Assembly: GCA_014237365.1 (NCBI GenBank)
Contig: JABZFQ010000190.1
Location: 1-36,254, forward strand
Origin: Desulfobacteraceae bacterium
GTDB taxonomy: Bacteria; Desulfobacterota; Desulfobacteria; Desulfobacterales; ETH-SRB1
Direction of reading: 5' to 3'
DNA length: 36,254 nucleotides
The position numbers were made by a program, and so were the translations under genes. This document shows, in pieces, positions 22,446-28,906 of the stretch (within the stretch, counting starts at the first letter, position 1; each line of letters begins with the position of its first letter). The notes below the pieces were generated by a model. It saw only the letters and a list, made by a program, of their open reading frames with translations, did no database searches and was not told the origin of the DNA.

Positions 22446-23216
22446 ATGAATAATGAAGAAATAGTTCGCAAGAATTTAGAAAGCCAACAATTCCTGGAGC
22501 TTCGTCAGGCTACGGAGAAAATTGCCGGTGTTTTGGACAAAGGCCTCAAGAGTCACCTGTCTGTCCTAAAATCTCTCTTTATACCAAGGAAACTACTCGG
22601 TACCTATATAAAAAGTGCTGCAATGGAAGAAGTACCAGGATCAAATAAGGCCTTTGCCAAACTTCAGGAACAATATGCAGCAATTTGTGATAAACCATTC
22701 GGTCTTTCTAAAAAGCTTCACCCACCTTTGCCACCCATTTCGAATCACTTGGAGGCAACGGCCTTTCAATACTCTCTTTCCATTGGAGGTTCACAAGAGA
22801 AGGTTGCAAACATTACTTGTCCCACAAAGTGGATTCTTTCGTACCGAAGCGAGCGCTCTTTGAATCGTTTGAAGGCTATGCTTTCTGGCGCCGTATCTCG
22901 CCAGGCTGATGACATGAAACAGACTCTCATTGATCATCTTGTTATGGTTGTCTTCCTGAAACATTTTCGCACATTGACTCAGTTGCTCGAAGACCTGCGC
23001 TACGAGGTTGAAACCATACAATTAAATGATTTGGGAGGGCTTCCCGTGGTGGTGTTGAAAGCGCCTTTGGAGACCTTTCTTCCGCCTGACGATTTTATCC
23101 TTCAAGTCACGCAACTATCAGGTATTCCAGCCTTCCAGGAGATTATTGATCTTGAGGCAGTCGAAAACATCCCTGACCCCCTGAAGGAATCTTTCAAAAT
23201 AGCTCTTACCAAATAA
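22446..23216 (+). CDS. Unrecognised protein, 256 aa, next to sheath-like gene
   Basis: No family is recognised. The product looks soluble and mainly helical in its first two thirds (RKNLESQQFLELRQATEKIA; SRQADDMKQTLIDHLVMVVF; KHFRTLTQLLEDLRYEVETI). A short beta-rich stretch follows (GLPVVVLKAPLETFLPPDDF) and then an acidic C-terminus. There is no signal peptide and no membrane segment. The start has no clear ribosome-binding site, because the upstream DNA is a palindromic element. Its 3' end overlaps the 3' end of the convergent sheath-like gene by 11 bases. Position suggests a link to that gene, but I cannot assign a function. Confidence 0.6.
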   Translation: MNNEEIVRKNLESQQFLELRQATEKIAGVLDKGLKSHLSVLKSLFIPRKLLGTYIKSAAMEEVPGSNKAFAKLQEQYAAICDKPFGLSKKLHPPLPPISNHLEATAFQYSLSIGGSQEKVANITCPTKWILSYRSERSLNRLKAMLSGAVSRQADDMKQTLIDHLVMVVFLKHFRTLTQLLEDLRYEVETIQLNDLGGLPVVVLKAPLETFLPPDDFILQVTQLSGIPAFQEIIDLEAVENIPDPLKESFKIALTK

Positions 23217-24792
23217 ATTCCAACTCTACTTTTTCTCCGGAAGGCAATATTTGGCGAGAAGGTTCTATGACAATACGGATCGGAATCCGGTTGTCAGGAC
23301 GGGACTGGCTGGTTGAAATGATAAGACTTGTGGGAATCATATGACGGCTTCTTTCCCAATATAAAGAAAAGGCTTCCTCAAGACCTTCCTGAATTTCTGC
23401 AGGTTCAAGATCATCCTTAAAATTATCCTTACACCAGAAGAGTAGTTGGGTTAGCCTGGAAATAAGGCTTTGATACTTTAAGGAGCCGCCTGCAACAGTT
23501 GTTTCTACCGGCATAAAGGCAATATCTTGGTTGGGTGAGGCAACAAGGGGGATAATCCCAGCCCTTGCAAATTGATCAATTCTTTCCTCAGTAAAGTGAG
23601 TTTCTGTAGGAATAGGCTTATCTGCATCTGCTGTATTCAAGGCCAGATCCTCAACTCTGATATTCTGCCATTCTGTAAATCGTGTAGGCCAACCGGTCTT
23701 CACAAAACTTTTGCCTACGAGGCACCCTATGGCCCATACAGGGCTTGCCCAAAGACGATCGTGTTCCTCAAAACGAACTAACCGTGGTTTATTGTCTATC
23801 CCATAAGGATAACGGGCTAAAAAACTGTTGCAGGTGACAACCAACCATCTGGCTGAAGAAATCTTTCTTAAACGTCGCCACTTGGCAAAAGTCGGTTCTT
23901 TGAGATAATGGGGCAAAAAGGGAAGTCTTTTGATGTCCTTCCAGGTATCAAGGTATAAGAATTTGTGGGTAATCCAGCAAATAGATGGCACCATGAGGGT
24001 TTGTGAAAATTCAGCGATTTTTTCAAGAAGTTCAAGACTCCTCGGAGAATTATCAAATGGAAGAGCAATAATGAATAGAGAGGGAAGGTTGTGAATCAGG
24101 CCCGTAGTTAAGTTGTTTAACGTTTTATCCAATGTTTCAAAAGATACAGGAACAACTTCAAATGCAAGTTTTTTGTTTACACCTCCTTGTTGTATGAGAA
24201 ATCTTAGACCTCTCCAGATGGCTTCTAGATTCCTGAACTTTTCATTAGAAAAAATATGGCTCAAAATCGGTAGAAGGATGGCATCAATCTGGGCAGTCAA
24301 GACGTCGGTTTCAGCATGAGAGCTCGGTCTTTCTTCCGGCAAAGCGACTATCTTCAAAATATCATCAACGGCACTTGTCGAAGTCCTTCCTGCTTTTTGA
24401 TGTTCTGTAACAATATGAATCGGGGGTAGGCCTGGCCATTCTTTAAGCCGTGCGCCTATTTTTTGTACTGACAGACCTTTTAACCTGGTTTCGTCAATAA
24501 ATTTTTTGGCATCTAACAAGTTCTTTAAAAAAACGTTGTTTTTGATGAGACAGTCTGGATGGAAGTCTTTTAACCTTTTGCAGGTGATGGTTAGGCCTCC
24601 TGCTTGGCAAAGATCTTTGGGAAGAGAGACATAAAATGAGAGCCCCATGTCTTCCATGGCCTGATCCAAAGTCGTTTTATCTATTCGGATGGGCGCTGTG
24701 GACCACGGTGCGTGTTCTTCAAGGCTAAAAGGTGCCAGAGCCAGGATCTTAAAAGGAAAGGATGGAAGTTGCATCTTTATCAATCCATTCAT
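23206..24792 (-). CDS. T6SS-type contractile sheath protein, TssB-like plus TssC-like in one chain
   Basis: In T6SS, TssB and TssC form the contractile sheath that drives the Hcp/VgrG needle. This 528-residue product begins with a TssB-like part (about 12-105): PFKILALAPFSLEEHAPW, then VDK-like TTLDQAMEDMGLS, then the LKDFHPDCLIKNNVFLKNLL segment that matches the TssB DFHPD region. From about 185 it resembles TssC: NLEAIWRGLRFLIQQ; a central region with PSLFIIALPFDN; ARWLVVTCNSFLARYPYG; and FVKTGWPTRFTEWQ-N. A normal system encodes these as two proteins. The C-terminal part (about 440-528) contains the TssC-type end region. Start ATG 24792; ATG 24774 is an alternative. This call rests on motif memory and would need profile searches; some residues of canonical TssC are not matched. 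Confidence 0.7.
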   Translation of the reverse strand: MNGLIKMQLPSFPFKILALAPFSLEEHAPWSTAPIRIDKTTLDQAMEDMGLSFYVSLPKDLCQAGGLTITCKRLKDFHPDCLIKNNVFLKNLLDAKKFIDETRLKGLSVQKIGARLKEWPGLPPIHIVTEHQKAGRTSTSAVDDILKIVALPEERPSSHAETDVLTAQIDAILLPILSHIFSNEKFRNLEAIWRGLRFLIQQGGVNKKLAFEVVPVSFETLDKTLNNLTTGLIHNLPSLFIIALPFDNSPRSLELLEKIAEFSQTLMVPSICWITHKFLYLDTWKDIKRLPFLPHYLKEPTFAKWRRLRKISSARWLVVTCNSFLARYPYGIDNKPRLVRFEEHDRLWASPVWAIGCLVGKSFVKTGWPTRFTEWQNIRVEDLALNTADADKPIPTETHFTEERIDQFARAGIIPLVASPNQDIAFMPVETTVAGGSLKYQSLISRLTQLLFWCKDNFKDDLEPAEIQEGLEEAFSLYWERSRHMIPTSLIISTSQSRPDNRIPIRIVIEPSRQILPSGEKVELEFIW

Positions 24793-24848
24793 TTAGTTTG
24801 TTGAGCATCTAATTGAAAAATAATAGAATGATCTTATGATATTGTCAA

Positions 24849-25035
24849 TAAGGAACGGGGACGAAATAACTTCCCCAAGTAGGCGCATAGATTTGGGTCA
24901 AATTTGTTCGATCTTAAATCACAAAAGTTGATGGAATAGCCTATCTATTTTGATATTTTTGGGATTTAAGATCGGGCAAAGATAGCTTGAATCTGTGATG
25001 CATAGTTGGGGAAATTATTTCGTCCCCGTTCCTTA
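24849..25035. mobile_element. GGAACG palindromic element, copy 3 (opposite orientation)
   Basis: The element begins TAA, GGAACGGGGACGAAATAACT and ends ATTTCGTCCCCGTTCC, TTA; the flanking AATAA/TTATT extends the inverted repeat. The GTAGGCGCA arm comes first and the ATGCATAGTTGGGG arm last, opposite to copies 1 and 2. G replaces T in GGAACGGGG with a matching C on the other end, so the stem pairing is kept. It lies upstream of vgrG, and the remainder of the interval (to 25107) holds only a short palindrome around TTGACCATATAGGTCAA-like sequence and no gene. Confidence 0.85.
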
Positions 25036-25107
25036 TTATTGCTTAAGTTGATTGTTGACCTATATGGTCAACAATGATAAAAAATATGACTAGAAAAATT
25101 TTCCAGA

Positions 25108-25214: not shown

Positions 25215-27200
25215 ATGTCTCTATTCGGATCGGCAAGCAAAGCGCAATTCCTGTTTGAGATATCAGGCACAAAATTTAAGGTTGTGGACTTCAGTGCAAC
25301 TGAAACCATTTCCTCGCCATATAATGTCGATCTCAACCTGGCCTTGGAAGACGAGATTGATTTTGATGGTGTAATTGCCAAAGAAGCCGTTCTGACCATT
25401 CTGGGCAAGGAAGAGGACCGGTACTTTCACGGCATAATCAGCCAGTTCGTGCAGACGGGGAGCAGAAGTCGCTTTTACCTCTATCAAGCAAAGATGGCGC
25501 CGTCTGTCAGACTCCTTTCCTTTAAGCAGGACTGTCGCATTTTTCAAGACAAGAGCACACCTGATATTGTCGGACAGATCCTTAAAGACGGTGGCATAAT
25601 GACCGACTGTTTTGAGTTTCGACTTCAAAATCAGTATCAGCCCAGAAAATATTGCGTCCAATACTGCGAGACCGATTTAGACTTTATATCCCGCCTCCTC
25701 GAAGAAGAAGGAATCTTCTATTTTTTTGAACATGCCGAAAACAAACATCTCTTAGTGTTCGGAGACGGCCTCGTGAACTACCAGCCGATTGCCGGAGAGA
25801 CTGATGTCTTGTTTCACCCTCCCGATTCCATGGTTCCGGAAAAAGAGTTCATCCGGGCATTTGCTCTATCTCGTCAAATTCAGACAGGACAGGTGGCCAT
25901 AAGAGATTTTAACTTTGAAAGACCATCTCTTGATTTAACCGCCCGGGAAGAGGCTGATTCGTTTCAAAAGTTAGAAGTATATGATTATCCTGGCGAATAC
26001 TCTGATCAAGATAGAGGAAAGAGGCTCGCCAAAATCCGTCTTCAGGAAACGGTGATGTTCAAGGACAGGGCGGAAGGGGAGAGTTGTTGTCCTCGTCTCA
26101 TCCCCGGTTTTACCTTCAACCTGACCGGTCATATGCGGGATGCTTTCAATCAGGAATATCTCCTTGACGAGATAGTTCATACAGGTTCCCAACCACAAAC
26201 GCTTGATGAGCTGGCCGGTTCAGGAGCCGGCTTTAGCTATGCAAACAATTTTTTCGCTATTCCTTCTTCGGTGACCTTCAGGCCGGAAAGAAAAACTCCG
26301 AAGCTTGTGGTACAAGGGGCTCAGACCGCCATGGTGGTTGGCCCCGACAGTGAAGAGATCTATGCCGATAAATACGGCCGGGTCAAAGTTCAGTTCCACT
26401 GGGATCGTGAAGGCGAAAAAAACGAAAAGAGCTCCTGCTGGATCCGTGTGGCGAGCAGCTTTGCCGGTGGTAACTATGGCAGTATCTTTATACCCCGCAT
26501 CGGCCATGAGGTGATTGTCGAATTTGTGGAAGGCGATCCTGACCGGCCGGTTATCACAGGATGTGTTTACAATGCCAACACAATGCCCCCTTATACCCTT
26601 CCCGACGAAAAGACTAAAAGCGCTATCAAAACCAACAGCTCTCCGGGAGGAGAAGGGTTCAATGAAATCAGGTTTGAAGATGCCAATGGTAATGAAGAAA
26701 TATTTATTCATGCAGAAAAAAACATGGATCTTCGCATTAAGAATAATCGTAGAGAGTGGATAGGCAACGATCGGCATCTGGCAGTACAGCGCGACAAACT
26801 TGAAATAGTGGAACACGACAAGCACATCATCATTAAACAAGATGAACTCCAGGAAATCGAGCGTGACCGGAATCTTAAAATTGAGGGTGGAGATGCTATC
26901 GGTATTTCAGGATCGAGATCTATTGCAGTGCATGGCGATGTAATCAAGGTTTTCAAAAAAAAATACAGTCAGGAGGTTGCCCAAGACTACTATGTGAAGG
27001 GGGATAACATAGTGTTCGAGGGGATGACAGGTTTGTGCATGAAGGTAGGAGACAATTTTATTACCCTCAACTCAGGTGGAGTCTTTATCAAAGGGACCAA
27101 TGTGCTGATCAACAGCGGCGGCTCAGCCATTTCAGGAACGGCCGGCAACATCGTAGCTCCGGCGCCCCCTCTTGAAGCGGAAATTGCGGGTGAGGCATAG
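25215..27200 (+). CDS. vgrG: T6SS spike protein VgrG (TssI)
   Basis: VgrG forms the trimeric tip of the T6SS needle. The 661-residue product has a gp27-like N-terminal part (QFLEISGTKF to about 380, including YCVQYCETDLDFISRLLEEE, the family signature near 145-165, and FHGIISQF near 75). A gp5-type OB-fold follows (YADKYGRVKVQFHWDREG near 390-407, then SIFIPRIGHEVIVEF). The C-terminus is a repeated needle region (MDLRIKNNRREWIGNDRHL; VQRDKLEIVEHDKHIIIKQD; ERDRNLKIEGGD), and the chain ends in a short Pro/Ala tail. There is no obvious extra effector domain. GGAGG lies 4-8 bases before ATG 25215. Minus-strand genes converge on it from the right. Confidence 0.95.
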   Translation: MSLFGSASKAQFLFEISGTKFKVVDFSATETISSPYNVDLNLALEDEIDFDGVIAKEAVLTILGKEEDRYFHGIISQFVQTGSRSRFYLYQAKMAPSVRLLSFKQDCRIFQDKSTPDIVGQILKDGGIMTDCFEFRLQNQYQPRKYCVQYCETDLDFISRLLEEEGIFYFFEHAENKHLLVFGDGLVNYQPIAGETDVLFHPPDSMVPEKEFIRAFALSRQIQTGQVAIRDFNFERPSLDLTAREEADSFQKLEVYDYPGEYSDQDRGKRLAKIRLQETVMFKDRAEGESCCPRLIPGFTFNLTGHMRDAFNQEYLLDEIVHTGSQPQTLDELAGSGAGFSYANNFFAIPSSVTFRPERKTPKLVVQGAQTAMVVGPDSEEIYADKYGRVKVQFHWDREGEKNEKSSCWIRVASSFAGGNYGSIFIPRIGHEVIVEFVEGDPDRPVITGCVYNANTMPPYTLPDEKTKSAIKTNSSPGGEGFNEIRFEDANGNEEIFIHAEKNMDLRIKNNRREWIGNDRHLAVQRDKLEIVEHDKHIIIKQDELQEIERDRNLKIEGGDAIGISGSRSIAVHGDVIKVFKKKYSQEVAQDYYVKGDNIVFEGMTGLCMKVGDNFITLNSGGVFIKGTNVLINSGGSAISGTAGNIVAPAPPLEAEIAGEA

Positions 27201-27730: not shown

Positions 27731-28861
27731 TTACCAGACCTCTATCGTATTGACCTCCAGAGCGCTCAGGTCGTTTATGGGGCAAAGACCCCGCCATACC
27801 AGATAAAAACGTTTCTCATCCGGAATAAGGCAGAGAGTATCCGGTTTGAGTTCTACTTTTTCCGAAACAGGAGATGCCTCTTCAGCCTCTTCGATCTCTT
27901 TGCCCTCCTCCAGTTCCTCGTTTATGCCGTCTTGCTCAACTGCATCTAAGTCATCGCCCTTGCTTGCCCCCAAAGCCGACTCATCTGCAAAAAGATGCTC
28001 AAACGATTTGCTTACGGCACAGTTTACTCGTATGCCGGGCAAATGAAAGCGGACCGTTCCCTCAGGTGTAAGATTCACAAGCTCAACCTCTTCATCACAT
28101 TTAAGATAGCCCTTAACCTGCAAATCGGGATGCGCTCCGTTGTAATAGTCGAACCGAAAGTCTTCCGGCGGATCGGGAGAATGTTCCAGTCTCCATTTGT
28201 CATCGTATGTGCCCAGATAGCCCGCCCGAGGCATCCACGCCTTGCCGTAAAAGCCAAAACCAGCCGGCATGGGGTGATCTTTCCACGACTTGATGAGCTT
28301 TGCAGGGTCCTCAAGGTTCGGCAACAAGGCTCCATCAAGCGTTTTTTTCGATTTTTTTGCAAAAAAACCTCGTCCTGCCAAATTTTCTTTACAATAGCCA
28401 CCACTATGGGTATCAATGCCGCCAAAGGCTCGTTCGTACACAAGATCCATAATGCTAAACTGTTGGGGTCTGGAAAAATGCTCCGGTAACAATCGGCTCG
28501 AACATTTCCAGCGCCGATCGCCGATGACACGGATGGTCTTTTTTACGTGTCCGACATGCAGCGATACATCCAGAGCATAAACAGACCCTCCATGCGGAGC
28601 ATAGGCTTTTCCTACAAGAACAATATCAGCCCGTGGCTTGAAGGGGGCCACATCGGATTCAAACTTCACGCTGCCGCCATTCTTTTCATCGTAGAATTCG
28701 TCGCCAAAGGCTATTGGTATTTGCTCCGATGCTGCTTCTGCCTTTTCTCCGGAACAAATATCAAAGGTGCCTTTGACAACAACAGTCAGAACGGTTCTCC
28801 CTTCCGGTCCTCTCAAAGGGAGTGCTTTAACTTCAAACGGTGTATTGTTTAAAATCTTCAT
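27731..28861 (-). CDS. DUF2169 domain protein (T6SS VgrG/effector adaptor type)
   Basis: DUF2169 proteins are encoded beside vgrG and PAAR genes and are regarded as adaptors or chaperones for loading effectors on the spike. The 376-residue product starts MKILNNTPFEVKALPLRGPE. It shows the family pattern TVVVKGTFDI near 27-36, GDEFYDEKNGGSVKFESDVA near 55-74, FKPRADIVLVGKAYAPHGG, YERAFGG and a long beta-rich body. An acidic insertion (about 305-335, EEGKEIEEAEEA) and a C-terminal WRGLCPINDLSAL follow. ATG 28861 is the family-like start; the frame is open to a TTG at 28897 with GGGG upstream. It is 45 bases after the Pro/Gly-rich gene, in the minus-strand operon. Confidence 0.9.
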   Translation of the reverse strand: MKILNNTPFEVKALPLRGPEGRTVLTVVVKGTFDICSGEKAEAASEQIPIAFGDEFYDEKNGGSVKFESDVAPFKPRADIVLVGKAYAPHGGSVYALDVSLHVGHVKKTIRVIGDRRWKCSSRLLPEHFSRPQQFSIMDLVYERAFGGIDTHSGGYCKENLAGRGFFAKKSKKTLDGALLPNLEDPAKLIKSWKDHPMPAGFGFYGKAWMPRAGYLGTYDDKWRLEHSPDPPEDFRFDYYNGAHPDLQVKGYLKCDEEVELVNLTPEGTVRFHLPGIRVNCAVSKSFEHLFADESALGASKGDDLDAVEQDGINEELEEGKEIEEAEEASPVSEKVELKPDTLCLIPDEKRFYLVWRGLCPINDLSALEVNTIEVW

Positions 28862-28906
28862 TATCTGAAAACCCATATCTTTTTCAACAGCAACCAATCC
28901 CCAACC

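Follow-up and report, generated by a model that had tools for sequence, protein, structure and literature searches.

The closest described counterpart of the protein reported here is the TssB/TssC (VipA/VipB) heterodimer of the T6SS sheath. The N-terminal linker of TssB normally connects each protomer with the adjoining ring on the baseplate side, and its length governs contraction (PMC5797969, PMC5813253). Addition of two residues to the VipA linker abolished contraction but not assembly (PMC5797969). It has been proposed that TssE, or gp25 in phages, is the acceptor of sheath linkers at the baseplate (PMC5813253). Fha and PpkA have been described as post-translational regulators of T6SS; in the parts of the two papers that were consulted, this control targets TssL, Fha and the site of membrane-complex assembly, and no sheath-like member of the pathway is named there (PMC3953482, PMC12607579). 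No description of a TssB-TssC fusion, or of TssC-like proteins, was found in searches of the open-access literature.

In this study, a stretch of 36,254 nucleotides from a Desulfobacteraceae bacterium (contig JABZFQ010000190.1; the window) was found to encode a single-chain TssB-TssC sheath paralogue on the minus strand (23206-24792). The gene is one uninterrupted open reading frame of 528 codons (528 aa). Its probable start is codon 7, an ATG at 24774 (MQLPSFPFK..., giving 522 aa), because in a comparison of orthologues most open with M-Q/K-x-P-x-x-P-F-K. The preliminary description had read this frame as a single chain with TssB first. That reading is right, since PF05591 (T6SS_VipA/TssB; residues 12-101, E 3.2e-7, 30.7 bits against a cut-off of 24) and PF05943 (VipB/TssC; to residue 428, E 2.8e-38, 132 bits against a cut-off of 27) match significantly in this order, both above the curated Pfam cut-offs. 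The TssB-like domain (residues ~12-101; 24490-24759, minus strand) is without the N-terminal linker strand of TssB. It is followed by the TssC N-terminal sheath domain (residues ~160-428; 23509-24315, minus strand), which was recognised by Pfam and by profile-profile comparison. In profile-profile alignments against the TssB and TssC proteins encoded by relatives, the probabilities were 98.9% and 99.9%, respectively. The NCBIfam models TIGR03358 (TssB; residues 12-101, 26.7 bits) and TIGR03355 (TssC; residues 138-427, 116.1 bits) scored well under their equivalog cut-offs of 97.25 and 271.5. The C-terminal ~100 residues (23209-23508, minus strand) stand at the position of the TssC gp25-like domain and are divergent and shorter, ending in ELEFIW. 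The Pfam model of the gp25-like domain (PF18945) gave no match to this region, and the profile match was weak (34% probability over 54 columns); by sequence, its gp25-like identity is weak.

The AlphaFold model of the chain (mean pLDDT 67, pTM 0.59, with low confidence in residues ~283-440) is of middling quality but has a TssC fold. The nine best PDB matches were all T6SS TssC sheath structures, and these were the only ones at E<=0.001; the whole model aligns with TssC 5mxn over 510 columns. Phage sheath proteins resemble the fusion in having one polypeptide per sheath subunit, but the best phage-type match was 3lml at E 0.05, compared with 1.8e-12 for TssC. A phage or extracellular contractile injection sheath was rejected, the fold being closer to TssC than to the phage type. 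Acidovorax TssW, considered as a relative, was also rejected, as it is an outer-membrane protein. The fusion thus shares with the TssB/TssC heterodimer its two domains, in the order of the two genes, and the TssC fold; it differs in being one chain with a divergent C-terminus and no TssB N-terminal linker, and in being mostly encoded with FHA, kinase and phosphatase genes. Absence of the linker was common to all members with a readable start, the sequences being compared alongside the genome's own TssB. The match begins at TssB model position ~28-35, and in most members this onset is a few residues at most from the first Met on which the orthologues agree. TssC residues ~1-63 are replaced in the fusion by a short linker. 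It carries a conserved motif, [VI]D[DN]IL.MVALP, resembling the ClpV-binding helix of TssC (S-L-L-D-D-I-V); a PSSM of this helix gave p values of 0.004-0.9 on fusion members, with better matches elsewhere in many of them, and both a lost and a retained ClpV-binding helix were set aside as readings.

Orthologues were sought in 193 genomes of the order, in GTDB contigs and in 395 genomes across the phylum, and 27 fusion loci were compared. The fusion was present in 12 of the 193 genomes. Most of the hosts are represented by assemblies from metagenomes. The scan of GTDB contigs yielded further members in Desulfobacterales and Syntrophaceae, and a strong match (at least 320 bits) was detected in 17 of the 395 phylum genomes. 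In a tree of TssC domains, the orthologues, from Desulfobacterota, formed one clade of 25 sequences (support 100/99) with a long stem. Full-length fused orthologues in independent assemblies exclude an assembly artefact, a caveat raised when the frame was first described; the fusion of TssB and TssC in one chain is real. With dN/dS values of 0.13-0.25, the gene is maintained under purifying selection. Fragments with stop codons were found in two genomes (G525 and G311), so the fusion is occasionally lost. A TssB-TssC-like single chain from Acidobacteriota (L078:7034-8722), whose gene has canonical tssB-tssC next to it, also falls with the window family in the tree, although its branch is very long.

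A second set of fusions, termed 'type II', was found inside T6SS clusters of another subtype, near clpV or vgrG (L046:16442-18007, L047:12766-14421, L049:6289-7863, L054:12983-14557 and L079:9902-11464). They form a clade of their own in the TssC-domain tree (support 100/100), and the tree excludes a shared origin with the window fusion. Both families are T6SS-linked single chains with TssB followed by TssC. The type II proteins, however, keep the TssB N-terminal region and end at TssC model position ~350, and therefore have no gp25-like domain, whereas the window family has lost the TssB N-terminal linker and kept the C-terminal region. Distant type II relatives, annotated as TssC, are found on plasmids of Leisingera and other Rhodobacterales, where one such relative is contained in a larger protein of 1244 aa (L114:11973-15707). 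Beside tssM, another locus (L048:1907-3655) encodes a single-chain TssB-TssC of 582 aa with a complete TssC, including the gp25-like domain; it is a candidate for a true one-protein T6SS sheath.

Genes for baseplate or membrane-complex proteins, for Hcp or for ClpV were not identified in the window, in agreement with the preliminary description. Both genes flanking the fusion had been called unrecognised. This still applies to the left one, C6 (22446-23216, plus strand, 256 aa, convergent with the fusion), a conserved gene without a known domain: there was no Pfam match of value, no NCBIfam match and, in a PDB sequence search, a weak CheX match at best (E 0.12). The right one (25215-27200, plus strand, divergent from the fusion) encodes the VgrG/TssI spike protein (TIGR03361, E 7.6e-195). 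Its start lies 422 bp from the fusion, and the product is 73% identical to VgrG in the main T6SS cluster of the genome. A DUF2169 protein is encoded at 27731-28897 on the minus strand (PF09937, E 1.7e-86); DUF2169 is a common gene of VgrG/PAAR islands. The C6 family is strongly conserved (56-67% identity to the window copy). It stands beside the fusion in 10 of the 27 loci and is present in eight of the 193 genomes of the order, six of which hold the fusion. C2 (21389-22180, plus strand, 263 aa) has a Rossmann-like (TIR/receiver-like) N-domain and a beta domain. Its AlphaFold model (pLDDT 90.6) gave weak structural matches to TIR and receiver folds; no known family was recognised in Pfam or NCBIfam, and a PDB sequence search was empty. 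C2 was detected in 11 of the 12 fusion genomes and in 9 of the 181 others (Fisher p 7e-12, in related genomes), and in two relatives tssK-tssL-tssM follows it, either immediately or after one intervening gene. C2 is a T6SS-associated family. When C6 and C2 were compared, profile against profile, with the collected T6SS clusters, neither matched a known T6SS core protein, and neither was retained as such. A defence-system reading of the locus was dropped, as there was no PADLOC match. Between the fusion and vgrG lies an inverted repeat of 38 nt (24847-24884 and 25000-25037; 92% complementary, 115 nt apart). A 20-mer of this repeat recurs on host contigs C68 (L051) and C102 (L112), which suggests a dispersed element of mobile or REP-like type.

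A search of the rest of the genome, as proposed in the preliminary description, revealed, on contig C206, a canonical T6SS cluster (tssA, B, C, hcp, E, F, G, clpV and vgrG) and, on contig C68, a divergent second T6SS-like cluster, whose TssF is diverged (92 bits) and whose TssC has a long branch. As separate tssB and tssC are present, the fusion does not belong to a genome without a normal machine; separate canonical tssB/tssC were also found in most other fusion genomes. Among the 193 genomes sampled from the order, TssF was detected in 50, namely in 10 of the 12 fusion genomes compared with 40 of the 181 others (Fisher p 3e-5); p values of these association tests are optimistic, because the tested genomes are related. 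The two fusion genomes of the order in which TssF was not found are G094 and G060. The former carries tssJ-K-L-M-tssA on a contig ending where tssB should follow (L122). In G364, from the phylum sample, separate TssC, Hcp and TssA were not found in the assembly; its contig (L115) starts just before tssE and holds the same-strand run tssE-tssF-tssG-clpV-fusion-vgrG, with 5 bp from clpV to the fusion. Neither G094 nor G364 was accepted as a fusion genome without T6SS, since T6SS genes are present in both and the contigs end at the missing tssB-tssC part. The sole such genome left is G060 (80% complete), where no T6SS gene was detected among those sought.

Gene order in relatives places the fusion with T6SS genes. 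In G320 (L119) the order is tssC-hcp-tssE-F-G-clpV-vgrG-DUF2169-DUF2169-DUF3540-C2, then the fusion, then a double-FHA gene, and in G038 (L042) the fusion adjoins tssA-tssB-tssC. In further genomes the fusion and tssC share a contig at a distance of 16-60 kb. They are more than 1 Mb apart in two single-contig genomes (G172 and G066); linkage to T6SS is therefore common but not universal. The fusion is very probably a functional T6SS accessory.

The most constant neighbour of the fusion is a gene for a protein with two FHA domains, which in 17 of the 27 loci directly precedes it in the same orientation, mostly with a gap of less than 140 bp. The fusion and this double-FHA gene probably form one operon in most loci. 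A PP2C phosphatase gene was present in 13 of the loci and a Ser/Thr kinase gene in 12. In the host genome, the FHA gene is on a different contig from the window fusion; contig C102 carries kinase, deacetylase, LysM/TPR, FHA-FHA and PP2C genes beside tssJ. The fusion loci are similar to the PpkA/PppA/Fha threonine phosphorylation pathway in that FHA, Ser/Thr kinase and PP2C genes are grouped near T6SS genes, but the FHA protein of the fusion loci differs in its two FHA domains. From this gene context, the fusion is probably tied to phosphorylation control of T6SS. Our best explanation, to which we assign a probability of roughly 0.5, is that the fusion is an intact sheath-protomer paralogue, accessory to an ordinary T6SS, and that it most likely regulates the assembly or firing of the sheath in a way linked to phosphorylation; it is the probable operon with the double-FHA gene, near kinase and PP2C genes, that points to such a role.

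A mechanism can be suggested from what the fusion has kept and lost, although our confidence in it is low. In the fusion, the TssB-TssC body is retained, as is a C-terminal domain at the gp25-like coupling position; without the N-terminal linker of TssB, the protein would join the sheath or the baseplate incompletely. As the body and C-terminus are kept and the linker is lost, it could dock either on free TssBC or at one sheath end, the simplest site being the baseplate or the first ring, as with TssE. A baseplate position is one that the fusion could share with TssE and gp25, but TssE is a protein of ~140 aa with the gp25-like fold only, and in L115 a canonical tssE is present in the same operon as the fusion. 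Once docked, the fusion might gate nucleation or hold the sheath unfired, as a cap, brake or gate. The FHA protein would then be the switch, recruiting or releasing the fusion according to threonine phosphorylation.

Other explanations were considered. The fusion might be a structural part of the sheath at a defined place, such as the first ring on the baseplate or a distal cap, with no regulatory role, its linkage to FHA and kinase genes reflecting general clustering of T6SS genes. Retention of the C-terminal coupling region with loss of the other linker recalls the one-sided position of TssE, the independent type II clade has lost the opposite end, and in G364 the fusion is part of the core operon, between clpV and vgrG. 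However, 40 of the 50 genomes of the order with TssF are without the fusion, which is therefore not a needed part, and the constancy of the FHA gene as its neighbour also argues against a purely structural protein; we consider this rather unlikely. It is improbable that the fusion, instead of regulating the sheath, serves the neighbouring VgrG/DUF2169/PAAR effector island as a chaperone, adaptor or decoy. In the window VgrG and DUF2169 are adjacent, in L119 the genes vgrG-DUF2169-DUF3540 are followed by C2 and the fusion, and the same order is indicated in G231/L118, but many fusion loci have no VgrG alongside and the homology to TssB-TssC points to the sheath.

The preliminary description had suggested an alternative contractile apparatus, or a relic of one. 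Neither a separate machine nor a relic is supported: the fusion is conserved, co-occurs with canonical T6SS genes, and in relatives is located within T6SS loci or immediately next to them (L042, L115 and L119). A simplified apparatus, in which the fusion would polymerise alone around the Hcp tube, has in its favor the presence of both sheath halves in one chain, as well as the assembly of G364, in which the fusion is the sole sheath gene found, though the contig begins just upstream of tssE. It is very unlikely given the canonical separate tssB and tssC in the host and most other fusion genomes, the absence of the ring-tying N-terminal linker from all members with a readable start, and the lack of a dedicated baseplate or tube set with the fusion. 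A decaying remnant, left after a deletion had joined two sheath genes, would fit the stop-codon fragments and the divergent C-terminal domain but is highly improbable in view of the open frame in ~25 diverse loci, the low dN/dS values, at least 25 invariant columns and the conserved neighbourhood.

As the two fusion clades lack opposite coupling parts, a role at the ends of the sheath is attractive. Single-chain TssB-TssC proteins may even represent a general, unrecognised class of 'one-sided' sheath protomers, which would have arisen on two or more occasions through reciprocal losses and would serve as end-pieces or brakes of a standard sheath, the first clade being under FHA/kinase control; we regard this generalization as speculative and somewhat doubtful. 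Such genes are hidden in databases under the name TssC. A natural protomer without one linker, encoded beside an FHA protein, would offer direct access to control at the level of the sheath. If the generalization is true, one-sided protomers would add a new level of post-translational regulation, with the sheath itself as its target.
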